A DNA stretch of 21,743 nucleotides, from positions 1 through 21,743 of the IMG/VR virus record IMGVR_UViG_3300012009_000025. One strand, written 5' to 3'. Numbering within the stretch: position 1 is the stretch's first letter; each line of letters opens with the position of its first letter. The notes beneath the pieces are model-generated. The model was not told the DNA's origin, did not search any database, and was given only the letters and a program-made list of their open reading frames with translations. The position numbers and the translations under genes are program-made. Below are positions 1-21,743 of this stretch, piece after piece. This DNA is from a virus.

Positions 1-9
1 GCAGGGGAT

Positions 10-52
10 AGCGGGCGAAGGGAGTCGAACCCTCAACATTCAGCTTGGAAGG
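10..52 (-). other. 3' half of tRNA-Gly(TCC); probable phage attachment site
   Basis: On the minus strand this reads as the 3' part of a glycine tRNA: anticodon loop with TCC (complement of 47-49), variable loop, a 5-bp T stem with a TTCGACT loop (complement of about 18-34), and the acceptor strand CGCCCGC plus discriminator T (complement of 10-17). The 5' half is missing. The upstream sequence gives only about four acceptor pairs and no D arm, and pairing in the anticodon stem stops after three bases. Phages that integrate at tRNA 3' ends leave exactly such a partial copy, so this is inferred to be one boundary (att) of the element. No second copy and no integrase is in the window. A decayed tRNA or phage-borne attP would look the same. 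Confidence 0.6.
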
Positions 53-89
53 CTTTTCCAGGCCGCAATTTACACCGTTTTTCTCCGCA

Positions 90-355
90 TTCTAACTCAT
101 TGCTGTGCAGACTTTAGCGAACCTCGCCACTCATTCGCATTTCTGCATGTATCGCCGTATTTATAACCCAGATACGCTCAGAATTATAACCCACCTTCGA
201 GAACGTGGGGAGCTTCAGCTTACTTGGCTGAATGTCGTTTGTTGGCCCTTGGCAAGTCTTGCTCACTTGCTGTATGCTGTCAGCCATGGCAGAACAGGGG
301 ACAATCCGAAGGCTGCTGCTCACCGCGATAATATTGCCTCGCTGCTTCTGACCAA
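90..355. other. Region with no supported gene at left end
   Basis: Between the tRNA fragment and the terminator at 356-389 I see no ORF with a ribosome binding site or a recognisable product. The long open frames here overlap each other on both strands and run into the gene at 427-936, so they are treated as chance. No clear repeat was seen. Confidence 0.5.
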
Positions 356-389
356 GAGAAAAGCCCCACGCCGGGTAGGGCATAGGGCT
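356..389 (-). terminator. Rho-independent terminator at end of leftward late operon
   Basis: On the minus strand AGCCCTATGCC and GGCGTGGGGCT form an 11-bp stem (two G-U pairs) around a 6-nt loop CTACCC. TTTTCTC follows at once. It lies 38 nt past the stop of the gene ending at 427 and is the last leftward element before the tRNA fragment, so it probably closes the whole late transcript. Confidence 0.8.
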
Positions 390-426
390 TCGCTCGTTTG
401 TCGATTCTGGGGCGTTCTGGGGCTTC

Positions 427-936
427 TCAAGCCTTCTGGAAGACAGGCCACGGGCCTTTGCTGTCAACCTTGGCAATGCCCATTTCGGTGGCTTCTGGCG
501 TATCGCATGCCGCCCGAATCTCGCCGCTCTTAAAGTCTGTCTCTGCGGCAAGCTCTTTGCACTCAAACGTAGTCTTCGGCTTCTTTGCGAGAATGTCAGC
601 AACCTGGCCTTGAATCTCAGCAGCCTCAGCAGCCGACAAATCAACCTTCTTCGCTCCCCGCTTGCTGCTGCCAGAGCTTGCGGCGGGGCTGCTCGTGGAT
701 GCTCCGCTGCCTTGGGTTATCCTTACGCCCAAATCTCCCAGCAGCGATTTTGACGCCTTGTAAGCGAATGTCGCCATCGACGAAAGCTCGTCGTCAATCG
801 CTCGCAGTTGCGTTGCGAATTCTTCCCGCTTCTGCTGCAGCGTTTCTTTTCTCTGCTGTACAAGCTGCATCGTCTTTACCGCATCGCCTGCTTCTGACGC
901 TTTCTGAATGTCTGCCAGCTTGATTTCTTTGGCCAT
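427..936 (-). CDS. Coiled-coil protein with C-terminal winged-helix-like domain
   Basis: 169 aa, unknown function. Residues about 15-55 are rich in Q, E, K and R and predicted coiled coil. Residues about 75-95 are a Gly/Ser/Ala linker. The C-terminal 70 residues (from VDLSAAEAAEI) have the helix pattern of a small winged-helix domain ending in an aromatic WPVF strand. The start is supported by AAAGGGA about 8 nt upstream. It is the last gene of the leftward operon, directly before a strong terminator, in the position where siphoviruses often carry lysis or accessory genes. A DNA- or protein-binding accessory role is only inferred. No signal peptide or membrane segment is visible. Confidence 0.75.
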   Translation of the reverse strand: MAKEIKLADIQKASEAGDAVKTMQLVQQRKETLQQKREEFATQLRAIDDELSSMATFAYKASKSLLGDLGVRITQGSGASTSSPAASSGSSKRGAKKVDLSAAEAAEIQGQVADILAKKPKTTFECKELAAETDFKSGEIRAACDTPEATEMGIAKVDSKGPWPVFQKA

Positions 937-983
937 CGTTGTTCCCTTTCAGTTGGAGTAATTGTCTTAAATGGCTGTCACGC

Positions 984-1328
984 TTACTGATTATCCTGGC
1001 CCTTCTTCTCTGTCAAGCTCTTTTTTATCGCCCAAGCAGAATCTTTATGCTGAAGTCTCTGCTTTATTTCTGTAACGTCTTGCCGCATATCGCATATCTG
1101 CTGCTCTATCCGGGCTAGCTGCTTCGCTGAAGCTATTTCATATTCTCGCTGTCTTGCTTGCTCCGCTTGCAAGTGAGTTACATCTTGCCGCAGTTGTTTT
1201 ATATTGCTTTCTACGCTTGTACGCCAGCCACCAGCGGCGAAGCTCCAAGCCGCGATGGTTATTATGATACCGGCGGCGAAGCTGGCGATAATCATTATGG
1301 TTTTTATGCTCGCTTCTTTTAAACCCAT
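984..1328 (-). CDS. Small membrane protein with coiled coil (holin- or spanin-like candidate)
   Basis: 114 aa. Residues about 9-33 form one strongly hydrophobic membrane helix (IMIIASFAAGIIITIAAW). The rest, about 38-105, is a Q/E/R-rich amphipathic helix typical of a coiled coil. One N-terminal helix plus a long coiled coil resembles XhlA-type holin helpers and inner-membrane spanins of phages, but no diagnostic motif is present, so the lysis role is an inference from shape and position after the tail genes. The start ATG has AAGGGGA about 8 nt upstream and overlaps the end of the glycosyltransferase-like gene by 10 nt, suggesting translational coupling. No endolysin was found beside it. Confidence 0.75.
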   Translation of the reverse strand: MGLKEASIKTIMIIASFAAGIIITIAAWSFAAGGWRTSVESNIKQLRQDVTHLQAEQARQREYEIASAKQLARIEQQICDMRQDVTEIKQRLQHKDSAWAIKKSLTEKKGQDNQ

Positions 1329-2104
1329 AAGTCATTCCCCTTTTCATATTCGCAAGCTTCGCAAAAGCGTTCAGGTATATATTGTTTCAAGCACTTAGAC
1401 AGAGAAGAATTATTATAGTTCAGCCATTTGGCTGTTCCTGCTCTCTTGCAGATACTTTCATATTGCTCTGCTGGGCGAGCTATCATCTTCCACTTCGTAT
1501 CGAAGCCAGCGATAGATTCGGGCTGAGCTTCGGGGAAATAGTAGTTATAATAGCACGTCGGGAGCATGTACGGTAATTCTGCTATCTCACTTCGCAGATT
1601 GAAATAGTCCAATACTTCTGCCATCCTGCCCTTGTGAAATAATCGCGGCAAATGCGTTTCATAATTCCAAGTCGGCAAGCTCTCGGCTTGAAGTCGCTTG
1701 ACTGTATTTTTAAGAAGCTGGCGATAACGCCCTCCAGTGTCGCCGAAGCGTTTATCAATATCTACTTTGCCCAAGTCGCATACAGCTTTGTGTGTCGCTA
1801 TGTCGTCTAACGATATATCTTCTAAGCATACAATGTCATCATACCAAAGAATGTAGTCTTCGCTGATTCGCTCATCTTCTATAACAGCTATGGTCTTATC
1901 TCGCGTGTCGTGCCAGCAGTTGTATTTTATATTCTTACGCCGTTTCATCGGTATATGATTTACGTTCGCCCATGCGGGCTTATCTCCGATGAGCCATACA
2001 TCATTCACCCAGTCTTCGCAGTACATCGCTATGCTTCTCAGCGTATAGCGTAGCTCGTGCCACTGCTGCCCTTTTTCAATAAATGGAATTACTATATCAA
2101 TCAT
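1319..2104 (-). CDS. Stealth/GT-A-like glycosyltransferase, putative
   Basis: 261 aa. The N-terminus MIDIVIPFIEKG followed by WHELRYTLRSI is the nucleotide-sugar-binding opening of GT-A glycosyltransferase-like proteins. ILWYDDIVCLED (about 86-96) carries an Asp pair where DxD-type metal-binding residues sit in Stealth-type proteins, and NYETHLPRLFHKGRM (147-161) resembles their conserved His-Pro block. Stealth proteins transfer hexose-1-phosphate, and related phage proteins are often called glycosyltransferases. It lies between tail-tip or fibre genes and a membrane protein, so it could modify tail proteins or host surface glycans; this is inference. SD AAGGGG sits 4 nt before ATG. The fold call is moderately sure, the reaction is not. 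Confidence 0.7.
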   Translation of the reverse strand: MIDIVIPFIEKGQQWHELRYTLRSIAMYCEDWVNDVWLIGDKPAWANVNHIPMKRRKNIKYNCWHDTRDKTIAVIEDERISEDYILWYDDIVCLEDISLDDIATHKAVCDLGKVDIDKRFGDTGGRYRQLLKNTVKRLQAESLPTWNYETHLPRLFHKGRMAEVLDYFNLRSEIAELPYMLPTCYYNYYFPEAQPESIAGFDTKWKMIARPAEQYESICKRAGTAKWLNYNNSSLSKCLKQYIPERFCEACEYEKGNDLWV

Positions 2105-2119
2105 AATGCCCCTTTTAGC

Positions 2120-3013
2120 TTAACTAAATGGCGTGCCGATATCAGTAGGTATTACGCCGGTAGCTCGATAGAATACAAGAGTGTCAGCTGTATAATCAGT
2201 ACACTCCCATTTGAGCGACCCATCGGTGTCATCCACGTAAATGTTCCCCTCGGATAAACCGCTATCGTACCACTCGAAGTTATTAGATGATATCTCTTCA
2301 AAATCCAACACCACAGGGTACAAACCAGGTGTCATGTAATCTATATTGAAGCTGTCGTCCTCATACAGTAGGCCCTGATAGCTGGCGTGGCTAAGGGGAC
2401 CGTCATATGGGTTAGACATTGCCTTGCCCCAGTGAGTCAGCACTACGTCTGACCAATCGCCGGAATCCAGCGTGCCCGAGCCCGTGCCGTCGATGTATAA
2501 TCGCCAGCATCCACTTAAGGTATTTGTTTTTTCACTGCCTGTATAACAAGCATATATAACTTTACCATCGGCTGTAACGTCTTGCTTCCACGCATAGACA
2601 AGCGTGCCTTCTTCTAGCGTTTCATTGTTTATTTCAAATAGATTGTATGTGGACGAATCGCCTCGGCCATTCGTTTTATTTATCCACTCGCCGCCTGTAC
2701 CAGAGATTGGCCCGAGCGTCTGTTCAGCGAAGCTGTAGGCCGTCGTGATATTCTCTCCGCTACCGCTACCACTGCCGCCGATATTCCAAGAGGGAGTACC
2801 GCTGCCTGTTATCTTGGCAACGAATCGCGGCACGTTTCGTGAAGGAAGACGATGAGCAAGCTCCGCGAGATTTATATTCGCTGTAACGCCACTACCTGTA
2901 TGAGCTAATTCTACTAACCCATCGCCAGATACACTTTCTACTGTATTCGCCGCATCTACAACGCGGTTTAGGTCGGATAGCTTATTATTGCCCTTTTGAA
3001 AATGTGGAATCAT
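2120..3013 (-). CDS. Tail tip or fibre-like structural protein, Gly/Ser-rich
   Basis: 297 aa, no family recognised. The sequence is Asp/Gly/Ser/Thr/Tyr-rich with little Lys, low in hydrophobic stretches, and has GSG-type linkers around residues 70-88 (GSGSGSG) and near 175 (TGSG). This composition suits beta-rich virion proteins such as tail fibres. It has no signal peptide or membrane helix. It follows the 3015-3779 gene with a 1-nt gap and has AGGA 7 nt upstream of its ATG, so the two are probably co-translated. Position downstream of the tape measure is where distal tail, baseplate and receptor-binding proteins are found, which is the basis of the call. Confidence 0.7.
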   Translation of the reverse strand: MIPHFQKGNNKLSDLNRVVDAANTVESVSGDGLVELAHTGSGVTANINLAELAHRLPSRNVPRFVAKITGSGTPSWNIGGSGSGSGENITTAYSFAEQTLGPISGTGGEWINKTNGRGDSSTYNLFEINNETLEEGTLVYAWKQDVTADGKVIYACYTGSEKTNTLSGCWRLYIDGTGSGTLDSGDWSDVVLTHWGKAMSNPYDGPLSHASYQGLLYEDDSFNIDYMTPGLYPVVLDFEEISSNNFEWYDSGLSEGNIYVDDTDGSLKWECTDYTADTLVFYRATGVIPTDIGTPFS

Positions 3014-3014
3014 A

Positions 3015-3779
3015 TTACAATCCTAAATCATTAAACTCAGCGGTAGTGTATACGCCGATTTCTTTAATGCTCTTGCCGCTATTCACAGCAGCGTCTATAT
3101 TGCTGGGTGGCTTGCCTGTTTCTGGGTCCGTATAGATTATCTTCTTTTTCCACCCATCCGCCTTGTAATGAAAATCATATCGGCAATCGTATGTACTTCC
3201 GCTATCTTCGCTATCGCCCGTTATCGCTGTACACAGAACCGTTCCCGCGTCAAGTCCCTTAAACGTAGTTGCATTTACTTTACCTACATACGCAATAGCA
3301 TCGCTGCCAGGGCTGCTGCTTTGAGTCTTGCTGTAGGAGAACGTTACATTGGGCAATAGAATAGAAAATGTCCCGTACTGCTTGGGGTGTTCTTTTCCAT
3401 CTTCATCGGTATATTCTGTATATACTAAAGCTCCGCTATTATCCGTATTCGCCTGAGACTGTTGGAGCGTTGCCCCTACGCTTATTTTTACATAGCTGGT
3501 ATCGTTCTCTTTATTTTTTCGCTCGTAGCTAAGCGTAACTTGTACTGTATCGTCCGACAATGCCGAAGCGTCATATTCAGACAAATATAGTTCGGTGTAA
3601 GTCGGGTGCTGGCTGCCGAGCGAATAGCCCGCAGAATTCAGCGTGTTAATTGCTACATCTATAGCGTTATCTGAGCCACTCGGAAGCCCATATACTAAGG
3701 CTATTCTAGTCTTACTTTTAAAGCCCTTTGAGTCTTTCTTTCCCCTATTGCCTTCAACTATGTCAATTGAATATCCCAT
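3015..3779 (-). CDS. Probable distal tail/baseplate protein
   Basis: 254 aa, function not recognised by motif. It is beta-rich (alternating polar and hydrophobic strands), with many Ser, Thr, Tyr and Asp residues and no membrane segment. The first gene after the tape measure in siphoviruses normally encodes the distal tail protein, and this gene takes that place, but the length and sequence give no direct match to a Dit family. Start ATG is preceded by AGTGGGGAA, the G-rich ribosome site used by most structural genes here. It could equally be a tail-tip component. Confidence 0.7.
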   Translation of the reverse strand: MGYSIDIVEGNRGKKDSKGFKSKTRIALVYGLPSGSDNAIDVAINTLNSAGYSLGSQHPTYTELYLSEYDASALSDDTVQVTLSYERKNKENDTSYVKISVGATLQQSQANTDNSGALVYTEYTDEDGKEHPKQYGTFSILLPNVTFSYSKTQSSSPGSDAIAYVGKVNATTFKGLDAGTVLCTAITGDSEDSGSTYDCRYDFHYKADGWKKKIIYTDPETGKPPSNIDAAVNSGKSIKEIGVYTTAEFNDLGL

Positions 3780-3796
3780 TTATTCCCCACTTCTCA

Positions 3797-5515
3797 TTAT
3801 ACGAACGCTACGCTTTGTCCTTTCTCTCGCATGAGCGAGACTAATTCAGCAGTGTTCTTCGCTGTCTTTTTCGCAGCGTCAGCCGTCTTATTCTCTTTAT
3901 TGCTCGGCTGAAGTATTAGTCTTCTCGATTGCATTACTTTAAATTCGCCTGGCCCTGTATTCATGCTAGACCCGCTGGCAAGTTTGCTTGTCTCTAGTTG
4001 CTTATTGTCCAGCGACGGTAGTTTCTTTTTTGCTATCTCTTTTTGCTTTTCGGCGAGTTTATTATTTACTTGCTGTGGCTTCTTCGTGTTGTCTTCCAGC
4101 TTCGCTAGACGCTTACTTACTTTCTGCTCGTATTCTGAGCTTAGCTGCTTGCCGAGGGAAGCCATTCTGTTCTTCAGTGCCTTTTCAGTCTCGCCTAATT
4201 TACGCTCAGCTATTTTTGGCATTTCTGTAAGCGTGGCCTCAAAGCCATCTGTTAATGCTGTAAATTTCCAGTCTGTCTTTTCGCCTTTAAGAGCTTTCCA
4301 TAAATTGCTAAAGAAGCTTTTAATGTTCTTCCACATATTTTTAAATATAGTCGCTACTAGATTCGCCATGTCTACGAATATATCTTTCCAGTTGCGGCCG
4401 AACCAAGACAATAAATCGGGTATAACAGTGCCTATCCAGTGAACGATTGTATTACCAAGCCAGACAATACTATGAGTAACTGCGACCGCGGCAAGCTCAG
4501 CAACGGTCTTCCAATTTGTAAAGCCTACTTCAAGCATCGTTATAACTTTTATTGATTGTACGGCGAGCCATTTTAAGAAGCCTACAATTCCATCTATTAC
4601 AGACGATATAACATCGCCAGTACTGCCGAATGATACACCGAAGGACGATAGGACGTTTATAATAGCATTAAATACAACGCTAAAATACGTCTTAAAGATT
4701 CCGAAGACTTGAGACATGCCGCCCATTATCTTACTGGTAGTCGCTCCCAGCCAGGGCATGATGCTTTTGCCCCAAGTGACTAGCTTCTCCATTATTGCTG
4801 TCAATGGTGGAAGAATTGATACCATTGCACCGCGAAAAGCCCCGCCTACAACGCTCTTTAAGCGAGTCATACTATCATTGATTCGCTCGGCATAGGAAGC
4901 GTCCAAACGATTGAAGGTAAGCCCCAGTTCTTCTGCTTCCGTCATTAAGCCTTGTAGAGTTCCTTTGCCTTGCTGAAGCATATTTAGCATGCTTACGCCC
5001 TGCCTGCCAAACATCATAAACGCTGCTGCTGCTCTATCGCTCTGTGTCGGAAGCTTAGAAATAGCTTCCGAGATTTCCAGCATTTGCTTTTCTAAGGGCA
5101 TTTTACTAAGGCTATCAGCAGATAGCCCTAACAATTCTAGCCCCTTGCGGGCTTCGCCAACGCCCATCTTCGCTTCGCCCATACGCCTAACGAATATGCC
5201 TAGACCTTTATGTAGTATGTCCAGGCTAGCTCCGTTTATTTGTGCAGCGTGTTCTAAGCCTGTCAAAGCTTTAGTAGCGATACCTAACTCGTCAGACATT
5301 TTCCCTACAGCGTCCATCATGTCTATAGAACGCTTGCCGAAAAACGCCATTCCACCCGCAGCAGCGGCACCGGCGAGCATACCGAATTTCGCGACCTTGC
5401 CACTAATGCGAGCAACGCCTTTGCCGAAGTTCGACAGACGCTTAGACGCACGCTGCATGCTGCGATTAAACGCTGCTGAGCGTGCTTTTAGACTGATAAC
5501 GATGCTATTTGCCAT
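3797..5515 (-). CDS. Tail tape measure protein
   Basis: 572 aa. It is the longest protein of the tail region and sits directly after the G/GT chaperone genes, the standard place for the tape measure, which sets tail length and passes through the tube during DNA entry. Residues about 10-40 are basic. A hydrophobic Ala/Gly-rich stretch lies near 42-60, and longer hydrophobic helices with Trp occupy about 250-400, as is usual in the central part of tape measures. The C-terminal third is Lys/Glu-rich and helical. It is short, implying a modest tail: at roughly 1.5 angstrom per residue about 85 nm. The start at 5515 overlaps the GT reading frame by 11 nt and has GGGGGAAAG just upstream. Confidence 0.88.
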   Translation of the reverse strand: MANSIVISLKARSAAFNRSMQRASKRLSNFGKGVARISGKVAKFGMLAGAAAAGGMAFFGKRSIDMMDAVGKMSDELGIATKALTGLEHAAQINGASLDILHKGLGIFVRRMGEAKMGVGEARKGLELLGLSADSLSKMPLEKQMLEISEAISKLPTQSDRAAAAFMMFGRQGVSMLNMLQQGKGTLQGLMTEAEELGLTFNRLDASYAERINDSMTRLKSVVGGAFRGAMVSILPPLTAIMEKLVTWGKSIMPWLGATTSKIMGGMSQVFGIFKTYFSVVFNAIINVLSSFGVSFGSTGDVISSVIDGIVGFLKWLAVQSIKVITMLEVGFTNWKTVAELAAVAVTHSIVWLGNTIVHWIGTVIPDLLSWFGRNWKDIFVDMANLVATIFKNMWKNIKSFFSNLWKALKGEKTDWKFTALTDGFEATLTEMPKIAERKLGETEKALKNRMASLGKQLSSEYEQKVSKRLAKLEDNTKKPQQVNNKLAEKQKEIAKKKLPSLDNKQLETSKLASGSSMNTGPGEFKVMQSRRLILQPSNKENKTADAAKKTAKNTAELVSLMREKGQSVAFV

Positions 5516-5855: not shown

Positions 5856-5869
5856 TTCAGCATCGTGAG

Positions 5870-6202: not shown

Positions 6203-6212
6203 TTATTCCCCC

Positions 6213-6650: not shown

Positions 6651-6681
6651 TTTTTATCCCCTATATATAGTTGTGTTTTTA

Positions 6682-7825: not shown

Positions 7826-7855
7826 GTCCCCCCCGATGAATCGTCTACAATAATA

Positions 7856-8614: not shown

Positions 8615-8615
8615 T

Positions 8616-9248: not shown

Positions 9249-9257
9249 ATCTATTCC

Positions 9258-11488: not shown

Positions 11489-11505
11489 TATTTCCCCCTA
11501 TAGGT

Positions 11506-12246
11506 TTATTTAAGAGTGTTAATTATAGAATCAAGCTTAGCCAGAACTTCAGCGTCGGCTTGTTGTTCTTGTTTATTTTCTGTTTCTTGCTTCTCGTCTT
11601 CTATCTTTTCTTTCTCTTCTGCCTCTGAGACAGTGAGCTTGGACTTGATATTTTTAGTCCAGTCGAATTTATCTAACATAGACGAATCTAATGCAGCTTG
11701 CTTCTTCGCCTCAGAGATAGAATCGACAAGCCCTGCGGCCTGTGCTTCGCTTGAATCGAAGTAAGTACCATCGGCCCCGTCTTCGCCCTTTAAGAATGCT
11801 TTTACGTCTTCTGCTGATTTACCAGAGCGTTTAACGTAAATATCTACTAAGCTATCTTCGATTTTATCAAGCTCTATAGCCTCATTGAGCATCGCCTGAG
11901 AATTGCCGACGACAAAGCTCCAAGGCTTATGCAGCATGACTAATGCCCCTTCAGCGATAACGCGAGTATCACCCGCTTGTAATATCAGGCTTGCTATCGA
12001 AGCAGCTAAGCCATCCACGTAAGCAGTAACGTTCGCTTTGTGCCGCTTAAGAATGTTGTATATGCTAACGCCGTCCCAGACGATTCCGCCCGGTGAGTTA
12101 ATATATAGATTTATTTGTTCTACGTCGGCGTGAGGCTCTAACGCTTTCGCAAATTGTTTTGCCGAGACGCCTTCGCCCATGAAGTTACCGATAATATCGT
12201 ATAAGTATATATCTAAGGCTTTGCCTTTTTGTTCTAGATTAAACAT
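11506..12246 (-). CDS. ClpP-like prohead maturation protease
   Basis: 246 aa. The serine protease core of the ClpP/crotonase type is clear: INSPGGIVWDGVSIYN (about 50-64), catalytic Ser in GLAASIAS (Ser83), and catalytic His in VMLHKPW (His106), with an acidic residue further on. It cleaves capsid N-termini and itself during head maturation. The C-terminal quarter is Lys/Glu/Gln-rich coiled coil, perhaps acting as internal scaffold (KEKIEDEKQETENKQEQ). SD AGGGGGAAAC sits at the ATG. It lies between portal and capsid genes, the standard order. Confidence 0.92.
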   Translation of the reverse strand: MFNLEQKGKALDIYLYDIIGNFMGEGVSAKQFAKALEPHADVEQINLYINSPGGIVWDGVSIYNILKRHKANVTAYVDGLAASIASLILQAGDTRVIAEGALVMLHKPWSFVVGNSQAMLNEAIELDKIEDSLVDIYVKRSGKSAEDVKAFLKGEDGADGTYFDSSEAQAAGLVDSISEAKKQAALDSSMLDKFDWTKNIKSKLTVSEAEEKEKIEDEKQETENKQEQQADAEVLAKLDSIINTLK

Positions 12247-12262
12247 GTTTCCCCCTGTTTAT

Positions 12263-13381
12263 TTATTCCGCTTTTTTGCGTTCTTTCTCGCTGCCTGTGT
12301 ACGGGTTCTGTAGCGTGTCGCCGCCTTCTATCTCACCCAAGCCAAGCTCAGATAGAAGCGTTTTACGAAGCTCATTCGTCGAGGCTAGCTCCTGTGCCTT
12401 TAGCTTGCCCGCAAGCTCTACAAGCGTTTCTAAATCGCCCATGAAGCGAGAAGTACCAATAGGCTTTATCGTATATTTGATTCTTTCGCTTCCAGACAGT
12501 AGATATTTCGCAATGCTCTGACTGACGTTCTCTAAAATCGGCGACATGACAACTCTATAGATAGTCTTTAAGTCTACGTTCCCGGGGTCGATACCGTGCA
12601 ACCAGAGTATTTCATCGCGATTGTATTTTCGCTGTTCTATGAGCTGGCCGTCGCGATTGCTTATTTGCTCACTCACAGATTCTACTACGCTCGGCAGTAT
12701 TTCATCTTTCGTACTGTTATTAAATATGCTTGCGAGCGTTTCTTTTAGTTTTGCTATTTGGCTGCTATCTAATTCGCCGACTAACTTCCAGATTCGTTTC
12801 GGATTGCCGCCATGCTGCATATATTTCTTCGCGAGCGTTTCTGTTCGATTGTATATGTCATAAATAGCGAGTTGGTCTGTGAAGGCTTTCCCCCTATAGC
12901 CGTCGAAGCTGTTCAATTTGACATGCCAAATATCCGTTTTGCTTATGCTTCTTCCCTTGTGTCTATATTCTATATTACCTGTATGATTTATATAGACTTC
13001 ATTGCTGGGTAATATCGTAGCTGAGACTAAGCTGCCCTTGTTATTACGTGTTACTTCCGCATAAGCGTTATGGTATTGTAGAAGATTATTATAGAAGCTC
13101 GCCCAAAAGTCGTATCCTGTTATCTTCTTGCATATGTCGTAATTAAGCTTTTTGTGGAGCCAGCCCTTTTCTCGCTGTCCATCGCGAAAGACGCCCCATC
13201 GTATATTCGCAAGCTGAGGCACAACAATAGAGCGAGCGATAGCATCGGCTGTATTAGGACCGGATATATCACTATCGCTATCTAAAGTCGAAAGCTTGGA
13301 CAATAAATCGCTTAAGCTGTCCTGCATTTGCTCGTACAGCGTTTCTTTCGTATCTGTATTTGTTTTCGTGAGCCAACCCAT
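12263..13381 (-). CDS. Portal protein, HK97-type
   Basis: 372 aa. The sequence shows the family blocks: FWASFYNNLLQYHNAYAEV near residues 92-110, DIWHVKLNSFDGYRG, GGNPKRIWKL and WLHGIDPGNVDLKTIYR. The portal ring is the DNA entry channel and the seat of the terminase and connector. The start ATG at 13381 overlaps the terminase stop in a TAATG junction, so it is translationally coupled; an AAAGGA lies further upstream. The length is a little below the 400 or so residues usual for the family. No anomaly in the core. Confidence 0.9.
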   Translation of the reverse strand: MGWLTKTNTDTKETLYEQMQDSLSDLLSKLSTLDSDSDISGPNTADAIARSIVVPQLANIRWGVFRDGQREKGWLHKKLNYDICKKITGYDFWASFYNNLLQYHNAYAEVTRNNKGSLVSATILPSNEVYINHTGNIEYRHKGRSISKTDIWHVKLNSFDGYRGKAFTDQLAIYDIYNRTETLAKKYMQHGGNPKRIWKLVGELDSSQIAKLKETLASIFNNSTKDEILPSVVESVSEQISNRDGQLIEQRKYNRDEILWLHGIDPGNVDLKTIYRVVMSPILENVSQSIAKYLLSGSERIKYTIKPIGTSRFMGDLETLVELAGKLKAQELASTNELRKTLLSELGLGEIEGGDTLQNPYTGSEKERKKAE

Positions 13382-14979
13382 TAACTATATAATTCCTTTA
13401 GCATATCAAGCTGAGCATCTAAAGCGTCGGCTGATATGCTTTTCTTTTGGCTTTGCCCGCTGAGAAGAAGCCAAGTCTTTATCGCAATAACTAAAGCTGC
13501 AACTCCGTCAATTCTAAATGGCGAGCTATCATTCTCTTTTGTCGGGTATCTTCCCCCGTTCACTTCTTTCAAGCATACATTCTCCACGCAATATTGCATA
13601 ACTCTATTACCGTCGTGCTGGATACTCCCATCTGTAAGCCTCGTCTCTAATTCGTTACAAGCATCTGTCAACCGCCGCCCTTGCCAAATCGGTTGCATGG
13701 TAAAGCCTGCCGATTCCATCTCGTCTGTAAAGAGCGTGCTTAATGCTGGGTCGAATCCGATAGCTTGTATACTGTGCTTATCAGACAAAGCTTCTATATG
13801 CGATTTTATTTTTGCTTGGTCTATCGTGTCGTTATTCACTAGCTCAATATCGCCCTCTTTTGCCCACTCTCTATATTTCGCTTCGTCTCGCGTTTCTTTA
13901 TCTTCAATTTGTCTATTAGGTAACCAGAATAAGCTTTTCGTATAGAACGCTTCAGCTTCTCTATCGTGCCACAGGGCGACTAAGCAGGTCAGGTCATGCC
14001 TCTTCGATAAATCTAGTCCCAGATAGCAGGGGAGTTGCCCTAGCTTTTCTTCGTCTGTGGCTGAGTGCAGACTGTTCCATCGCTCTACATCGAGCCATCG
14101 CCCTGCCAGAGATTGCCAGCGATTGCAGTTCAGCCGCAAGAACGCTGGGCGTGCTGTCTGCTTCGCCAGAGCTTCGCTGTGAGCGATTCTAAGCGTCTTG
14201 GCGTTGCCTAGCTCGTCTACGCCCGGGTTGACGCTTAGAACGGCTGAGAAGTCTTCCCAGTCTTCTTCTTCGCCCAGAGCGTACAGAACAGGAAGCGTGT
14301 GAATGTCTACGCTGCTGCCATCATGGATTCGCTGGCAGTCTTGCCAAACGTCCCAAGCAACGCCCCGTCGGTTCTCCCCGGCAGTCGAGATAGTCAGCAG
14401 AAGAGGATTCTTGCTCTTGCGGGCTGTGGTCTTCGCAGCGTCGAAAGTCGCTTGATTTATCCCGTGAAGCTCATCAAGAATGACAGGCCCCGTATATCCG
14501 TGTAGCCTGGCCGACTTGGTATTCTCAGCAGCTAGTACGCGAATCTCAGCGTGCTTGCCGAAGCGAATCTGCTTCTTGTAATCGACGCATTCAGCGATTT
14601 TTCTATCCCCGATGAATCTTTGCATATTGCTATAGCTGATTTCGCCCTGTTTTGTGGTAGGTGCTATAAGCGAAGTTGTCTCGCCTGCATGGTCTTCTAC
14701 TATTTGCAACGCCAACGCTAAAGCAGATTCGCCGTAGGTCTTCCCGTTACCCCTAGGGACGAATACATGTACCGTCTGAAAGCGTCTGCTACCATCGGGC
14801 ATTCGCCAGCCGAACAGCGGATATACGATATCTCGCTTGAACCACTCTAAGAATGTAAATTGCTCGCCATTTTCAATTTTCAAATAATTAAAAGCGAAGT
14901 TACAGACTTGCTCAGCTTTCTTCTCATCAAAAAAGCAGCCCTGTTTTCTTGCTAATTTATCGCTCTTATTTTTAAGCAT
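13381..14979 (-). CDS. terL: Terminase large subunit (Terminase_1/HK97-like)
   Basis: 532 aa. The ATPase has a Walker A VPRGNGKT at about 74-81 and a Walker B VILDE at about 166-170, followed by the coupling-type segment LLTISTAGENRRG. The C-terminal nuclease part starts near YLGLDLSKRHDLT with catalytic Asp candidates there and in IGFDPALST. It pumps DNA into the prohead and cuts the concatemer. It overlaps the small subunit gene by 8 nt, with only a weak site upstream, so coupling is likely. Length and order are typical. Confidence 0.95.
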   Translation of the reverse strand: MLKNKSDKLARKQGCFFDEKKAEQVCNFAFNYLKIENGEQFTFLEWFKRDIVYPLFGWRMPDGSRRFQTVHVFVPRGNGKTYGESALALALQIVEDHAGETTSLIAPTTKQGEISYSNMQRFIGDRKIAECVDYKKQIRFGKHAEIRVLAAENTKSARLHGYTGPVILDELHGINQATFDAAKTTARKSKNPLLLTISTAGENRRGVAWDVWQDCQRIHDGSSVDIHTLPVLYALGEEEDWEDFSAVLSVNPGVDELGNAKTLRIAHSEALAKQTARPAFLRLNCNRWQSLAGRWLDVERWNSLHSATDEEKLGQLPCYLGLDLSKRHDLTCLVALWHDREAEAFYTKSLFWLPNRQIEDKETRDEAKYREWAKEGDIELVNNDTIDQAKIKSHIEALSDKHSIQAIGFDPALSTLFTDEMESAGFTMQPIWQGRRLTDACNELETRLTDGSIQHDGNRVMQYCVENVCLKEVNGGRYPTKENDSSPFRIDGVAALVIAIKTWLLLSGQSQKKSISADALDAQLDMLKELYS

Positions 14980-15454: not shown

Positions 15455-15570
15455 TTTCCCCTTCTTGTTTTCGTGACTGGCTATCGAAGAAAGAATGTCT
15501 GTCTGCTATAGAGCGTTGCGATAAAATCTCGCACCCACCCCCCCTTATTACATCGAAGCGTGAGGGTCAG

Positions 15571-16269
15571 TTATGCTCTGCCCTCTACTACCTGGCTGGT
15601 AGTCGTGTCTCTAGTCTCACTTCTCACGCATGTAGGCGGTTGTTCTCGCATGTTTTCTAATCGTTCTTTAAGTTCTTTATCTTGTCGAATCTGATAAGCG
15701 TATCTATGCTTCGGTGGCTTCTGAATTACTCTCATCGCGTCTTGTGGCTTACGCACTTTCTTTACTACGCCGAATTGTTTATTATATCCTTTTGTACTAA
15801 CCGAACGCGAATGATATATTTTTCCATCAGCGTATTCGTAGAGCTTACTCGGCGTGCTCGTGCCGATATATACCCAGTTGCCGCCTTGATATATTCCGCC
15901 ATGGTGCCCTTCGGCTGGGTCAGCGAAGCTTACAAGAAGCTTAAGCTTTTTGTATTCTTTCTTGAGCAATCGTATAGCTATGCTTACGATTCGCGTTACT
16001 TCTGTCTCGTGTTTATCCAACGCTACTCTTACTAGCTCTAATACTTCGTTTCTTTCGAGATTGAAGCGAGTTTGCAGGCTCTTGCTATTGCTCATACCAA
16101 AGACGACAACGCCAACGAATCGCCCATGTTCCCATACACCTACAATATATTTGTAACCACTGGGCACTTGGCCCTTGTAATGCCATCGCTCGCATGCGTA
16201 CTTGGCAGAAGAGTAGCTGGCTTGTTCTAAATACAGTTTTTTATCCGCAATATCTAATCTGTCTCGCAT
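15571..16269 (-). CDS. mom: Mom-family DNA adenine modification protein
   Basis: 232 aa. Blocks CERWHYKGQVPSGYKYIVGVWE (25-46), RFVGVVVFG, ELVRVALDK and SFADPAEGHHGGIYQGGNWVYIG (114-136) match the Mom family, a GNAT-like fold. Mu Mom converts adenines in phage DNA to N6-carbamoylmethyladenine, blocking many restriction enzymes. The active residues are not verified here. Its start overlaps the HNH gene by 16 nt with no clear ribosome site, so it is probably coupled. It is C-terminally longer than the conserved block by about 60 basic residues. It lies between the nuclease and terminase genes, so modification and packaging are made together. Confidence 0.88.
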   Translation of the reverse strand: MRDRLDIADKKLYLEQASYSSAKYACERWHYKGQVPSGYKYIVGVWEHGRFVGVVVFGMSNSKSLQTRFNLERNEVLELVRVALDKHETEVTRIVSIAIRLLKKEYKKLKLLVSFADPAEGHHGGIYQGGNWVYIGTSTPSKLYEYADGKIYHSRSVSTKGYNKQFGVVKKVRKPQDAMRVIQKPPKHRYAYQIRQDKELKERLENMREQPPTCVRSETRDTTTSQVVEGRA

Positions 16270-16580
16270 GCTATCGCTTTTTTATATCTCTGTTTCTCTT
16301 TTTGTTTTGCTGCGAATTTCTTTTGCTCTTCTATTTTTTCTTTCTTGGTCAACAGCTTCATTCGCTCAGCAAGCCTGCATTCTTCTATTCCCTTTGCTTG
16401 GTGGCAGTGCAGGCAGAGCGTTTGAAGGTTATTCGCGTCTAGCTCGTATTGCGGATACTCTTTCTTTGGCAACATATGGTCTACCTGTAGCTGGCTCTCA
16501 TGTTCCCCGCAGCGGACGCAAGCGTGTTTATCGCGTTCTAAAACATAAGCTCTAATGGCTTGCCAGTCTCGCCAACGCAT
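16254..16580 (-). CDS. HNH endonuclease
   Basis: 108 aa. A first zinc-binding CVRC (21-24) is followed by VDHMLPKK with catalytic His35, then ELDANNLQTLCLHCHQAKG (about 46-64) with Asn and the second Cys pair. The C-terminal 40 residues are Lys/Glu-rich. HNH proteins next to terminases in HK97-like phages stimulate terminase cutting and packaging, so this is probably part of that machine rather than a homing nuclease. Start follows the lipoprotein stop directly in a TAAATG junction; ribosome site weak (AGAAG). Confidence 0.92.
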   Translation of the reverse strand: MRWRDWQAIRAYVLERDKHACVRCGEHESQLQVDHMLPKKEYPQYELDANNLQTLCLHCHQAKGIEECRLAERMKLLTKKEKIEEQKKFAAKQKEKQRYKKAIACETD

Positions 16581-17177: not shown

Positions 17178-17204
17178 ATTGTTTTTTCTCCGCGACTAAA
17201 AAAA

Positions 17205-17284
17205 GAAAGCTAAGCGTCTATATAGAAGGAGAAGTGGAAACCACTAAGACAAACTATACAGACGCTTCCCCCCAGAAAGCTTTC
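17205..17284. repeat. Nested inverted repeat upstream of lipoprotein gene
   Basis: Three concentric arm pairs: GAAAGCT/AGCTTTC (17205-17211 and 17278-17284), a 14-base pair AAGCGTCTATATAG/CTATACAGACGCTT with one mismatch (17212-17225 and 17254-17267), and AGTGG-AAA-CCACT (17233-17245). A C-rich bulge (17268-17277) lies on one side. It falls in a 146-nt gap and would be in the 5' leader of the lipoprotein mRNA, or form a large hairpin in DNA. No T-run follows, so a simple terminator is unlikely. Confidence 0.75.
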
Positions 17285-17323
17285 CTACATATAATAGGAT
17301 ATTTCAGACGCTAAAATCGGACA

Positions 17324-17560
17324 TTAAAACATCTTATTTCTTAACCGCTCCTTGTTTCGTCGCGTTCGCTCTTTTCCCCTTTTTCGGTCGAGAGCACGTT
17401 CTATCTCTTTTACTCTTTCTTCTTTGCACTGTTTTTCGTGCTCTAGAGCTATTACATAAGCTTCTTGTATATAATCTTCTATATCTTCTTCTTGAATATG
17501 CCAGCTTCTACACAGCATTCTTGCTTGCTTCTCTATTTCTATTATATCGTTTTCATTCAT
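17324..17560 (-). CDS. Small sigma-region-2-like protein
   Basis: 78 aa. The helix pair ARMLCRSWHIQEEDIEDYIQEA and YVIALEHEKQC looks like the core-binding helices of sigma-70 region 2. No region 4 is present. The C-terminal third is extremely basic (RKRGKERTRRNKERLRNKMF). It could be a truncated sigma factor or a small late-transcription activator; the resemblance is short, so this is tentative. The AGGGG upstream is 13 nt from the ATG. It lies 10 nt after the 17571-17891 gene. Confidence 0.65.
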   Translation of the reverse strand: MNENDIIEIEKQARMLCRSWHIQEEDIEDYIQEAYVIALEHEKQCKEERVKEIERALDRKRGKERTRRNKERLRNKMF

Positions 17561-17570
17561 CTCTATCTAT

Positions 17571-17891
17571 TTACCCCTCGCTTGTGTAGCGTTCGATTTT
17601 ACTTCTATATCTCCCCTTCTTCTTATCGTATCCGATAAGCAGGATAACTCCACCAGCAGCGAGCCAGGGCGTATATACTTCGCTCTTTTTTATCTTCTTT
17701 CTACGTGCTGCCATGTTCCCCCTGCTCGTCACCTGCACTCCCGCTATTTCGTCTGCTTTTACAGCTACATAATCAAAAACGCCGAAGAGGTCTTGTCGCC
17801 GTCGAGCGAATGCGTTCCAGTGCTCCGTCTTCGCTACGAGGTAGCCAGACGATTCCAAATCGCTCTTACAGCGCTGGTCGAATTTAGACAT
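17571..17891 (-). CDS. PD-(D/E)XK-like nuclease, small
   Basis: 106 aa. After an N-terminal helix, RRQDLFGVFDYVAVKADEIAG (31-51) leads into VQVTSRGNMAARRKKI. Asp40 followed 13 residues later by Gln53-Val-Thr55 fits the variant active site seen in small phage PD-(D/E)XK proteins. The last part is a typical beta core GVILLIGYDKKKGRY. Substrate is unknown; related proteins are usually annotated as hypothetical nucleases or resolvases. AAGGCGG stands before the ATG. Overlap with neighbours is minimal. Confidence 0.7.
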   Translation of the reverse strand: MSKFDQRCKSDLESSGYLVAKTEHWNAFARRRQDLFGVFDYVAVKADEIAGVQVTSRGNMAARRKKIKKSEVYTPWLAAGGVILLIGYDKKKGRYRSKIERYTSEG

Positions 17892-17892
17892 A

Positions 17893-18198
17893 CTACACCG
17901 CCTTTAGAGCTTCTTGGAGCTTCTGGGGCGATTCTCGAAGCCTTTTAAGCCAGCGTCGAAGCGTGCGGGGAGATATTCCAGCGGCGATAGAAGCTTCTTT
18001 CTTCGTCCGCCCGTTCGCCAGAGATTGCAACGCTCTCGCCTGGGCGTTCTGGAAAAGCGGGGAGCGAGTGAGGCGAGCTTCAAGCCAACAGTCATAACAG
18101 ATATCCTGCGGAGCGTGCCCGAGCGGGCCTGTGTAGTAGCAGGGAACAACTGTATTGCATTTTTCGCATTTAAGCTTTAACTTATTTTCTCTCTTCAC
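17893..18198 (-). CDS. Zinc-ribbon/helix-turn-helix regulator
   Basis: 101 aa. N-terminal zinc ribbon: Cys11/Cys14 and Cys34/Cys37 in two CxxC knuckles. The C-terminal part (about 55-90) is a helix-turn-helix with KKEASIAAGISPRTLRRWLKR as turn and recognition helix, as in phage regulators and small terminase HTHs. It likely binds DNA; a role as late-gene regulator is an inference from its position before the lipoprotein and packaging genes. The start is GTG at 18198 with AGGGGGAAG upstream; it overlaps the acidic-peptide gene by 17 nt. Confidence 0.78.
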   Translation of the reverse strand: MKRENKLKLKCEKCNTVVPCYYTGPLGHAPQDICYDCWLEARLTRSPLFQNAQARALQSLANGRTKKEASIAAGISPRTLRRWLKRLRESPQKLQEALKAV

Positions 18199-18391
18199 TT
18201 TCTTCCCCCTCGTAGTCCTCGTAGTCCTCTTCCCACAGCATCCGAGACACGAAACAGCTAGAGTTTGTCTGCTCGACGCAAAGAAGTATTCGAGAATACT
18301 CCCCCGAGTCTATAACTTCTTCCAGCTTTTCTCTTGCTTCATTTATCAATTGCTTATGCTCTGTATGTTCTATATCTATGTCTATATCCAT
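18182..18391 (-). CDS. Small acidic protein
   Basis: 69 aa with 22 Asp/Glu and about 7 Lys/Arg. It opens MDIDIDIEH and ends in EEDYEDYEGEESEERK, the latter from a short TCGTAGTCC tandem repeat near 18210. It is unrecognised. The strong negative charge could mimic DNA, as in some anti-restriction proteins, but nothing beyond charge supports it. The gene overlaps both neighbours (start inside the nuclease gene by 10 nt, end inside the zinc-ribbon gene by 17 nt), which supports it being real. AAGGA lies 9 nt upstream. Confidence 0.65.
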   Translation of the reverse strand: MDIDIDIEHTEHKQLINEAREKLEEVIDSGEYSRILLCVEQTNSSCFVSRMLWEEDYEDYEGEESEERK

Positions 18392-18975
18392 GTCTCTAAT
18401 CCTTTTTCTATTGTTTTCTCTAATTCGCCCAGCGTTGTCTTACGAACCGTGGGCATTTGTAACGCTACTTTTTTCGGAAGTACATATCCGTTGGAATTAT
18501 TTTCGCCTGATAAATTATATCTCAAATATTTATCGTGCTCTTCTGCGAGATTCGCAAGCATAGCCAGCGATTCATAGATGTATATTTCGTCATCGGAAAA
18601 ATAGTGAATCATAAAATCGGAAAGCGTAGCGGTGAGCCCAGCAGTCTCTTCTTCTCCTTTTTTCCCCTTCGATACTTCGATGCACAAATTCCCTGATTCG
18701 GAATAGTTCGATTCGTCCTTTATTTCTAGCCTGAGCATGGCCGCACCGAGTTTTACTTTTAAGTCATATTTACTATCTTTATCTTTATTTTTTGTTTTTT
18801 CGTAAGTAAAGCCTAACGCTTCTGCTATTTTTTCTTCTATTTCTTCTCCACGCCGTAGCTCTCTCGCGAATCTCTCACCCGGAACCAAGATTTCATCCGG
18901 TATTCTCACGTCTCTTAAAAATTCCTCTACAGCTTCTCTCTTTTTTAATTCCTTTTCAAAAATTCCTGAATACAT
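18382..18975 (-). CDS. PD-(D/E)XK nuclease-like protein
   Basis: 197 aa. Charged N-terminal helices (1-50) are followed by the nuclease core: KYDLKVKLGAAMLRLEIKDES (69-89) with Asp71, Glu84 and Lys86 spaced as D-x12-E-x-K, then GNLCIEVSKGKKG and GLTATLSDFMIHYF. This layout (core then GNLCIEV, then a T-x-x-DF block) occurs in phage and mobile-element PD-(D/E)XK nucleases. Substrate is unknown. AAAGGAG lies 7 nt before ATG. It is close (2 nt) to the upstream gene. Confidence 0.82.
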   Translation of the reverse strand: MYSGIFEKELKKREAVEEFLRDVRIPDEILVPGERFARELRRGEEIEEKIAEALGFTYEKTKNKDKDSKYDLKVKLGAAMLRLEIKDESNYSESGNLCIEVSKGKKGEEETAGLTATLSDFMIHYFSDDEIYIYESLAMLANLAEEHDKYLRYNLSGENNSNGYVLPKKVALQMPTVRKTTLGELEKTIEKGLETWI

Positions 18976-18977
18976 TT

Positions 18978-19385
18978 TTACTCTCCTTTAACTTTTGTAT
19001 GATAATATTTGTCAGCTTTCTTATATAGATAGTGTATGGCTCTTTGTACCTGCTTCTCTTCTTCTTTATCATAACCAACCTCGTAATCTTCTATTTCTCC
19101 CAGAAAACGAATAAGAGCGTTATATCTCTTTACAGACAAGCGTGGATTACCAAAGATAAAAGATTTAATACAATCTAAAGCTCTTTGGGTTTTCTCGTGA
19201 GCTTTTTTCCATTCATCATATGTTTCATACATTATAACGTTATCTATTCCGTTAATGTATTTAGCAGATTCATTATGTGCGTTATCCCACCTTGTCTTAT
19301 TGGGCTTCCCAAAGTCCGGCCTTCCCTCGCCCCAATTATTTATGCTGTAGAGTAATTTTAATCCCTTTTTTGTTTCTTTATCCAT
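18978..19385 (-). CDS. Hypothetical protein
   Basis: 135 aa, no recognisable family. It is Lys/Glu/Tyr/Asn-rich and mostly helical, without signal or membrane helix. The ribosome site AAAGGAG, 6 nt from ATG, is one of the best in the window, so the gene is real. It lies just upstream of the PD-(D/E)XK gene (2-nt gap), so the two are probably made together. Its order in the operon is that of phage accessory or late-early genes. Confidence 0.75.
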   Translation of the reverse strand: MDKETKKGLKLLYSINNWGEGRPDFGKPNKTRWDNAHNESAKYINGIDNVIMYETYDEWKKAHEKTQRALDCIKSFIFGNPRLSVKRYNALIRFLGEIEDYEVGYDKEEEKQVQRAIHYLYKKADKYYHTKVKGE

Positions 19386-19441
19386 TTCATTCTCCTTTTA
19401 CTATTTATGTTATCGGAATTTGTGCTTCTCTATATATACAT

Positions 19442-19633
19442 TCAACATTCTTTTTTATTATCCTTCTTTTTTCTGCACTTTTTTATATATTTTTTATGCT
19501 GTAGTGAAGACAGACTGTCCCCAATTTTATGATTTATAATTTTACTCGCTTCGCCCTCGCTCATAAAAAGCTCAAGCAGTCTAGCTGCTTTTCGCTTTTT
19601 TTTCGCTCCTGCTCGCAATTGCGTAGCTCGCAA
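19442..19633 (-). CDS. Small basic protein, doubtful
   Basis: 63 aa starting at TTG with GGAG 5 nt upstream. Very basic: GAKKKRKAARLLELFMSEGEA and a C-terminal KKCRKKKDNKKEC. The RKAARLLELFMSEGEASKIIN part could form a helix-turn-helix-like element, but this is weak. A gap of 56 nt separates it from the next gene. It would be the first gene behind the promoter at 20130-20158. It may be a chance frame in AT-rich DNA. Confidence 0.4.
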   Translation of the reverse strand: MRATQLRAGAKKKRKAARLLELFMSEGEASKIINHKIGDSLSSLQHKKYIKKCRKKKDNKKEC

Positions 19634-19725
19634 GCTCGCTCCACAATTAGCTTTTTGCTATTCTCTTTTGACTAAAGGCTTTTTATTTGTCAAAAATAAT
19701 CAAGAAGAATATACAAGAGTAACGT

Positions 19726-19753
19726 AGCAGGCAAGCTTGCTTGACTGCTTTTT
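19726..19753 (+). terminator. Possible plus-strand terminator
   Basis: AGCAG and CTGCT (5 bp) and CAAG/CTTG (4 bp) form a stem with one mismatch and a CTTG loop, followed by a run of Ts. No plus-strand gene upstream is recognised, so its use is unclear and the call is weak. Confidence 0.35.
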
Positions 19754-19805
19754 ATCGGCTTATCTTTTTCGAGCAGCAAGGCTGCGAAGGAAAAGTAATG
19801 CCGAT
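19754..19805. repeat. Nested triple-stem inverted repeat in leader
   Basis: ATCGGC (19754-19759) pairs with GCCGAT (19800-19805), CTTTT (19764-19768) with AAAAG (19791-19795), and GCAGC (19773-19777) with GCTGC (19781-19785) around loop AAG; TTC/GAA extends the inner stem. No T-run follows on the minus strand. It could act as an RNA signal (antitermination or attenuation) or as a DNA site. Confidence 0.65.
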
Positions 19806-20129
19806 GAGTGCTTCAAGTGCATATGCGTGTACATACATCGTAAATACATACATGCTTCTAATTAGATAGAAAAAGGGCATGTCTGCATTGCAGATGGAAC
19901 ATAAAACTATAATCAATAGACGCCATTGGAGATTAAAGCGAGCCACTACCCACAAAAAGTCACTAATTCTTTTTGCTGTCTTATCTATCAGAAATAAATA
20001 AGATTTTCTCACCGTCCGGAAATTCTTAATCTCTATGCTTTCCGGCGGATTTCGCTTATTTGCTGCCTTTTTAGTGTTAAAAAGCCGATACGCCTATTTA
20101 CTTTGTAAAAAACATCGTGCTTCTATATA

Positions 20130-20158
20130 TTTATATAATTCTAAAATACACTTGTCAA
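20130..20158 (-). promoter_or_regulatory. Sigma-70-type leftward promoter
   Basis: On the minus strand TTGACA (complement of 20153-20158) is followed by exactly 17 nt and TATAAA (complement of 20130-20135). Six of six and five of six consensus bases. The first leftward gene begins at 19633 or 19385, so the leader is long. It is a good candidate for the main promoter of the leftward operon. Confidence 0.72.
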
Positions 20159-20275
20159 AAACTTTTTAATAAAACAGTATTCTTCTACATGTCTTTTCGA
20201 TATATCTAAAATAAATCCTTCAACAAAATCAGATTTTCCCAAAAGTTTTTTATTTGCATGAAGCAAAGGCATAAT

Positions 20276-20306
20276 AAAAGCCCCAGCCAAATAAATGACT
20301 GGGGCC
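20276..20306 (-). terminator. Rho-independent terminator after the acidic protein gene
   Basis: GCCCCAG (20280-20286) and CTGGGGC (20299-20305) form a 7-bp stem with a 12-nt loop, followed on the minus strand by TTTTATTAT. It lies about 20 nt after the stop of the gene at 20328-20663 and separates it from the promoter region of the late operon. Confidence 0.75.
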
Positions 20307-20327
20307 TTGTTTGCCTACCGCATCAAT

Positions 20328-20663
20328 CTATTGACGAATACGCCGTACTGTGCTGGGGCCATCCAGCACCGGTTTGACATAATCTGTCTCGCACAGCAAA
20401 TCATCAAGTAGCTCTTTCGTCTGCTCCATTACCTGTGTGATGTAGTCTTTTTCGATATCATCATCCCAGTTGGTGCAGCAGTCAGGGTCGAATTTATCAC
20501 CGTTTAGCCTGGCCTGTTGAGTTTCGAATTCCCGCTGCTCTTCATCAAACTCTTCCAGCGTTTTTCCCGCTGGATGTTCAACTGTTATCGAGTATTCTTC
20601 GAATTCGACAGTAATCGTGTCCTTGTCTTGCCCATCTGCGTACATCTTTTTTCTTTTAAACAT
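20328..20663 (-). CDS. Acidic hypothetical protein
   Basis: 111 aa, not recognised. It is very Asp/Glu-rich in the middle (TLEEFDEEQREFETQQ and NWDDDIEKDY), with a basic N-terminal MFKRKKM and a basic C-terminus. The early part DTITVEFEEYSITVEHPAGKT looks beta-stranded, possibly a small ubiquitin-like or PRTRC-type domain. Strong ribosome site AAGGAG 8 nt from ATG; a terminator follows. The spacing and the canonical Shine-Dalgarno set it with the right-hand genes rather than with the structural block. It could be an early or accessory gene. Confidence 0.75.
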   Translation of the reverse strand: MFKRKKMYADGQDKDTITVEFEEYSITVEHPAGKTLEEFDEEQREFETQQARLNGDKFDPDCCTNWDDDIEKDYITQVMEQTKELLDDLLCETDYVKPVLDGPSTVRRIRQ

Positions 20664-20762
20664 TATAACGTCTCCTTAAAAAAGTAATGAGCACCATTGC
20701 TCAATAAATGTTTCTGTGTGATTGTGGAGGCTGCATATTCTGTTAACGATTCTGCCTCATTA

Positions 20763-20951
20763 TCAAATTATAGAGGCGTGTTCTGCTTCTCGCAACTCAC
20801 TCGCGAAGTTTTTCTTTGTGCTGCCTAAAGCCGATTCCTTTTCAAATTGCTTATTCCAAAGGAAAGCTTTCTCGATGTCTGTTAATTCGTTTATCTTCTC
20901 AAATAGTTTTGCTTGCTCTTTAGTTAATGCTGTTCTTGGTTTATTCTTCAT
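20763..20951 (-). CDS. Small hypothetical protein
   Basis: 62 aa, mostly helical and charged (KEQAKLFEKINELTDIEKAF), no known family. It has no signal or membrane segment. A good AAGGAG lies 9 nt before the ATG at 20951, which is the main support for it. It is 99 nt upstream of the acidic protein gene, in the same direction, and divergent from the winged-helix gene at 21183. Confidence 0.62.
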   Translation of the reverse strand: MKNKPRTALTKEQAKLFEKINELTDIEKAFLWNKQFEKESALGSTKKNFASELREAEHASII

Positions 20952-21182
20952 CTATCAATTCTCCTTCAATAAGTTGTGCAGCCACCGATTGCAGCTGCTT
21001 CACTTCGCTACAATTGGTGGCGAGTTTCCAGGGGCCTCTGTTGAATCTGTGCTGAATCGACGCCGAATCACCGGGCAATCCCTCTACTGCTGCTCGCCCG
21101 ACGCTCAGACCGTTTCTTGCTCGAATTTCAGGGGCGAATGCTGTATTCTTGCCGAATGCCCGCTGAATCAGGAGCAGCCGCT
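20952..21182. promoter_or_regulatory. Divergent intergenic region with operator-like repeats
   Basis: It separates divergent genes. An inverted repeat GCCACCGATTG/CAATTGGTGGC (20981-20991 and 21011-21021, one mismatch) has a 19-nt spacer. Further right GAATC recurs every 11 bp at 21043, 21054 and 21065, with CAATC at 21076; GAAT recurs at 21154 and 21165. Such spacing, one helical turn, suits cooperative regulator binding. No clear promoter boxes were seen. Confidence 0.5.
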
Positions 21183-21647
21183 ATGGAACAAGAGCAGGGA
21201 CAGAGAATTGCTGAAGAGGTCTGCGTTGACTGTCTAGAGGAGGGCATGATTCTCGCTCGTCAACGCTTCTTTGAGCGATACATCAAAGGACAGGTTGCCC
21301 AGTTCCATAGCTTTGACAACGCCTCAAAGGAAGGTCTGTCGATTCGGCATGAGATGCGGGAGCTTTGGAAGTGCTATCGGCATGGCGTAGGGCTTGCCCT
21401 GCAGCATATCGGTTACTTTGAATTGGTGGGGAATATACAACGTTTTCGGGATTCAGTCGTCTTGTCGTTTCTTCAGTCCACAGGTCGATGGCATTCGGCA
21501 GAAGAAATCAGCAATCAGACAACAATTCCCATGGGCAGGAGCACGGACGAAGTGCGGGGCATTTTAAAGGAGTTTATACGCAGGGGACTGGTAGAGCGAG
21601 CAGGAAGGACAAAGGCCACTCGATATAGGGCAATGTCCGAAGCATAG
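21183..21647 (+). CDS. Winged-helix DNA-binding protein, putative
   Basis: 154 aa from the ATG at 21183, chosen because GGAG lies 8 nt upstream; an upstream start at 21117 would add 22 residues but lacks a ribosome site. The C-terminal 65 residues (VLSFLQSTGRWHSAEEISNQ, then STDEVRGILKEFIRRGLVER and a basic tail) have the helix-helix-turn-wing pattern of winged-helix regulators. The N-terminal part is helical and unrecognised. It is the only rightward gene, divergent from the leftward set, with operator-like repeats upstream, so autoregulation is plausible. It may be a phage regulator or a host gene; the edge of the element is unknown. Confidence 0.72.
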   Translation: MEQEQGQRIAEEVCVDCLEEGMILARQRFFERYIKGQVAQFHSFDNASKEGLSIRHEMRELWKCYRHGVGLALQHIGYFELVGNIQRFRDSVVLSFLQSTGRWHSAEEISNQTTIPMGRSTDEVRGILKEFIRRGLVERAGRTKATRYRAMSEA

Positions 21648-21743
21648 GCATTCAGTCTATTTGCCGTTTTCCATATCTCTCATATATTGTGCGGTTTAGT
21701 CATTTATGCGGCTGCGGATAGTGCATAGGAAACGGTCTCCAGG
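21648..21743. other. No gene seen at right end
   Basis: Ninety-six bases after the winged-helix gene. No hairpin followed by T bases, tRNA or ORF was recognised. A second copy of the tRNA-Gly fragment is not here. Confidence 0.5.

Follow-up and report, generated by a model that had tools for sequence, protein, structure and literature searches.

Gene content of the window

The window, that is, the whole stretch of 21,743 bases analyzed here, is an entire IMG/VR record and possibly a fragment of a phage; the record carries no host genome. It encodes a terminase, a portal protein, a ClpP-type protease, connectors, a major tail protein and a tape measure protein, all of them tailed-phage genes, and we assign it to the tailed phages because of its terminase large subunit (Table 1). 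The gene for an HNH endonuclease is followed directly downstream, with an overlap, by mom, whose product matches the Mom profile PF25680 over positions 2–197 of 202 and possesses the columns that are invariant in nine homologues. No integrase was recognized among the genes scanned in this record, which may be a fragment.

Table 1. Positions of the principal genes and sequence features in the window
Feature	Position	Strand	Evidence
Zero-GATC, single-GCGC region	1..21743		Exact count, Markov model, codon-shuffle null, non-coding count
Tape measure protein (long-tailed phage)	3797..5515	-	PHROG 9483 E 9.5e-57
ClpP-type head maturation protease	11506..12246	-	PHROG 133 E 4.5e-63
Portal protein	12263..13381	-	PHROG 12 E 1.1e-36
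Terminase large subunit (TerL)	13381..14979	-	Pfam TerL_nuclease E 4.9e-25; PHROG 9 E 4.2e-102
Mom-family DNA-modification protein, 232 aa	15571..16269	-	PF25680 E 5.7e-43; PHROG 1384 E 3.8e-48; 8bv8 E 4e-10
HNH endonuclease, stop overlaps mom start	16254..16580	-	Pfam HNH E 1.9e-11; PHROGs HNH
Sole GCGC of the window	17871..17874		Junction of CAG (Gln) and CGC (Arg) codons, close to the start of gene 17571-17891

Some further features of the gene complement are recorded here. The gene at 1319-2104 (- strand) has a weak match to Stealth CR2, under the Pfam cut-off, as well as a match to PHROG 7999, and is an odd cargo beside tail genes. The sole apparent rightward gene, at 21189-21647 (+ strand), lies near the right end; the C-terminal part of its product bears a weak resemblance (E 0.003-0.005) to winged-helix ends found in defence proteins, and it possibly encodes a regulator. 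Ribosome-binding motifs upstream of gene starts are often of the GGGG type (for example, AGGGGGAA), with 36% of starts being the top value among the loci compared, and genes avoid AGGA, GAGG and AAGG internally.

Loss of GATC and GCGC

The initial annotation had described a total absence of GATC over 21.7 kb, and an exact count bears this out: there are 0 GATC in 21,743 bases compared with 59.1 expected under a maximal-order Markov model. Because GATC is its own complement, the zero applies to both strands of positions 1-21743. The expectation of about 85 sites given at the time corresponds to the uniform-base value; the deficit is still enormous under better models. We observed that a second word, GCGC, which had gone unnoticed in the first reading, is purged as thoroughly as GATC. 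Over positions 1-21743, a single GCGC (at 17871) contrasts with 101.9 expected under the maximal-order Markov model.

As a second null, synonymous codons were shuffled with the proteins and the codon usage kept fixed, over 32 genes comprising 18,993 coding bases. Under this codon null, 49.5 ± 5.3 coding GATC were expected (the lowest of 301 shuffles had 38) and 0 were observed, and for GCGC the corresponding values were 63.8 ± 6.6 and 1. The Poisson probability of zero GATC is approximately 3e-22 for the coding part alone. The 2,829 bases of non-coding DNA contain neither word, with 5.1 GATC and 8.0 GCGC expected. Under the Markov model and the codon null alike, GATC and GCGC both pass the threshold for elimination (observed-to-expected ratio, O/E, below 0.1 with an expectation above 15). 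The remaining fourteen 4-bp palindromes are present at 0.59-1.25 of the codon null, and the next lowest, CTAG (0.57-0.61) and CCGG (0.59-0.72), are unremarkable. Among all 4- and 5-mers and the degenerate 5- and 6-bp palindromes, no third site combined a large expectation with a count close to zero. A number of purine/pyrimidine palindromes appear low but were left uncounted, because purine bias on the coding strand distorts the both-strand Markov model.

Codon choice at word-forming junctions

The loss of both words can be followed into individual codon junctions. Aspartate before C is encoded 27 times by GAC and never by GAT, compared with 166 GAC and 220 GAT elsewhere (220/386), so that the preference for GAC at this position, which the initial annotation had reported from about ten pairs, extends to 27 of 27. 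Isoleucine after G is encoded by 45 ATA, 24 ATT and 0 ATC, compared with 140, 79 and 90, respectively, elsewhere, and TC never follows a codon ending in GA. With respect to GCGC, the alanine codon GCG is used 0 times before C (132 elsewhere), glycine before alanine is encoded by other codons 22 times and by GGC 0 times (204 GGC elsewhere), and the serine codon AGC does not occur before alanine (183 elsewhere). Arginine CGC follows G once, at the GCGC at position 17871, and follows other bases 64 times. All codon junctions able to form GATC or GCGC are affected, and only those, with normal usage elsewhere.

Two pentamers are also over-represented. ACGCT is strongly so on the coding strand (77 compared with 27 expected, z 9.5, in the window 1-21743), an excess greater than its role as an escape neighbor of GCGC obviously accounts for, and GAATC is high as well (42 compared with 16 in the codon null).

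Selection and mutational decay

Both words might have been erased without selection, either through decay of host-methylated sites (5-methylcytosine to T) or through a general mutation bias. Mutation is faster at methylated cytosine, which speaks for such decay. We compared the one-step neighbors of GCGC. GCAC/GTGC, the product of deamination of a cytosine methylated at the HhaI position, shows no excess (O/E 1.07), whereas the transversion product GCGA/TCGC is in excess (O/E 1.58); the transition product ACGC/GCGT is likewise in excess (1.57). Since transversion escapes are in excess and GCAC/GTGC is not, selection is favored over mutational decay, and we rejected the decay of methylated sites on this neighbor-word test. 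For GATC, we know of no decay caused by adenine methylation that is comparable to that of methylated cytosine, and a mutation bias would hardly clear GATC from every junction without exception and yet leave codon use elsewhere normal. Taken together, we consider mutational erasure of the two words exceedingly improbable.

Probable host restriction and alternative causes

GATC and GCGC are both palindromic 4-bp recognition sites of orthodox Type II enzymes. MboI, Sau3AI and DpnII cleave GATC, and HhaI cleaves GCGC. We conclude that selection exerted by Type II restriction in the host very probably removed the GATC and GCGC sites from this tailed-phage genome, or genome fragment. This is supported by the span of the loss, which comprises coding and non-coding DNA and every word-forming junction, by the palindromic nature of both words, the type recognized by orthodox Type II systems, and by the other fourteen 4-bp palindromes, which remain in the range given above. 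Selection by restriction, as the initial annotation had proposed, is thus the best explanation, but not a GATC-specific one: GCGC is purged as completely as GATC, and therefore at least two specificities are involved; a taboo against GATC alone would leave this unexplained. We infer two enzymes, one MboI/Sau3AI-like and one HhaI-like, present together in a single host or met in different hosts over time. Such enzymes of past or present hosts would cut incoming unmethylated phage DNA at GATC and GCGC, and variants with fewer sites would survive, until nearly no GATC or GCGC was left. Within genes, synonymous codon choice would remove the sites; in the DNA between them, substitution would do so.

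Phages are well established to eliminate restriction sites, chiefly in response to orthodox Type II systems, and non-temperate phages more often do so fully (PMC6286503). The window resembles the dsDNA phages of Rusinov et al. 2018 in the near-total loss (below 0.1, with an expectation above 15) of short palindromes recognized by Type II enzymes (PMC6286503). It differs from them in that two words are lost together, the enzymes are deduced, and a DNA-modification gene is present. Staphylococcus phage K has no Sau3A (GATC) sites, which was attributed to a GATC enzyme of its host (PMC9146914). The loss of GATC is complete in phage K as in the window, although the phage of the window is unrelated and has lost GCGC too. 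The double loss adds a strong case to a phage strategy that is already known.

Methyl-directed mismatch repair by Dam and MutH, which has been put forward for enterobacterial phages and phiX174, could also have removed GATC, with the loss of GCGC having a separate cause. Phage phiX174 (5.4 kb) likewise has no GATC, with approximately 20 expected, and this was tied to mismatch repair, as the mutation rate falls when GATC sites are added and counter-selection through MutH cutting of unmethylated sites was proposed (PMC5014478). In the window, by contrast with phiX174, all but one GCGC are missing as well, which mismatch repair leaves unexplained. Loss confined to GATC is expected from Dam/MutH, yet GCGC, which is outside this pathway, is equally lost; a second cause would be needed, whereas restriction covers both words. 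Mismatch repair is thus highly unlikely to account for these observations.

A further alternative is a DpnI-type enzyme, which cuts methylated GATC, encountered after growth in Dam-positive hosts, together with an enzyme for GCGC that is either m5C-dependent or HhaI-like. GATC was reported to be under-represented in 46 of 46 phages whose hosts encode matching modification-dependent enzymes, but the same authors credit mainly orthodox Type II systems sharing the site (PMC6286503). Modification-dependent and orthodox Type II causes are inseparable by sequence alone; we regard the former as improbable, if somewhat less so than mismatch repair. Protection by a phage-encoded methyltransferase was rejected as an explanation: none was recognized among the scanned genes, and such an enzyme would abolish the need for site loss.

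Three points speak against host restriction. The searches described below yielded no host and hence no restriction gene, the window spans just 21.7 kb, and a phage with protective DNA modification might need less site loss, by analogy with hydroxymethylase-bearing coliphages, which rarely avoid sites (PMC6286503). The pair of missing words serves as a fingerprint of the enzymes faced by the phage and as a testable clue to its host, with organisms possessing GATC- and GCGC-cutting systems as candidates.

Related loci and the search for a host

We retrieved comparison loci through the similarity of their TerL or Mom. Of the 260 loci testable for GATC, 11 have less than 0.1 of the expected number, and just one of these 11 has an expectation of at least 40 (L036, 3 compared with 44.8); GCGC falls under 0.1 in one of 239 loci (L019, 2 compared with 58.4). 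The window is thus the most extreme for both GATC and GCGC among about 250 related loci. L019 is a 17-kb viral contig with near-normal GATC (71 compared with 87 expected) that has TerL, the protease and a connector gene in common with the window at 30-41% identity. Different words have been lost elsewhere: AGCT in L182 (0 compared with 58), CGCG in L102 (0 compared with 111) and L109 (0 compared with 77), GTAC in L169 and CATG in L147. Such scatter of lost words among relatives is the expected trace of different hosts with different enzymes. The joint loss of CGCG and AGCT in L221 and L226 indicates that double loss is uncommon, not unique. L102 and L109 are stretches with TerL from assemblies of Zixibacteria and Phycisphaerales.

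No close relative or host was found in single-protein scans of IMG/VR with TerL, capsid and ClpP, in profile scans with TerL and Mom, in a genome collection and three bacterial groups searched with TerL, or in phages searched by megablast. Among phages, viral contigs and genomes, the best TerL identity was approximately 32%. A weak resemblance of several head and tail genes to proteobacterial phages and prophages does not settle the host group, and codon use and ribosome-binding motifs indicated no single host group.

Site loss and the mom gene

Over residues 9-202, the protein encoded at 15571-16269 is homologous in sequence to the methylcarbamoylase Mom of phage Mu (PDB 8bv8). Unlike in Mu, the window contains no GATC, and the Dam-dependent control of mom that operates in Mu through GATC sites cannot function here. 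The target context of Mu Mom is C/G-A-C/G-N-C/T. A Mu-like Mom would offer no shield for GCGC, because GCGC contains no adenine. It would not shield GATC either, because Mom-modified Mu DNA can still be Dam-methylated and cut by DpnI at GATC (PMC8281217). Site removal would therefore complement the Mom of the window if its activity and target are like those of Mu Mom. A DNA-modification gene in a phage that has eliminated sites almost totally is a pairing that one would not anticipate from the published coliphage comparison.

One might go further and propose a divided anti-restriction strategy, in which Mom masks the adenines within its reach, only words beyond its protection are purged, and both devices were shaped together. 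The adenine of GATC is followed by T and GCGC has no A, placing both words beyond reach in this proposal. However, the Mu Mom target is impossible in 12 of the 16 four-base palindromes, and the chance of two of two is approximately 0.55. Because of this chance pairing, and because some Mom-bearing relatives have lost AGCT or ACGT instead, such a division of work has no statistical support, and we consider it doubtful.

Both AGCT and ACGT can accommodate the target context of Mu Mom. AGCT is below 0.1 of expectation in 4 of 88 Mom-bearing loci and 0 of 162 others, and ACGT in 3 of 82 and 0 of 150, respectively; in both comparisons some of the loci are related, and the counts are not independent. 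Mom as the cause of the loss of GATC and GCGC was rejected, as Mom-bearing loci, taken as a class, avoid neither word and show a median O/E of 0.93 for GATC and 0.99 for GCGC (approximately 85 loci). Near-loss at a ratio below 0.15 was seen for AGCT in L182, L221, L225 and L226, and for ACGT in L189, L217 and L237.
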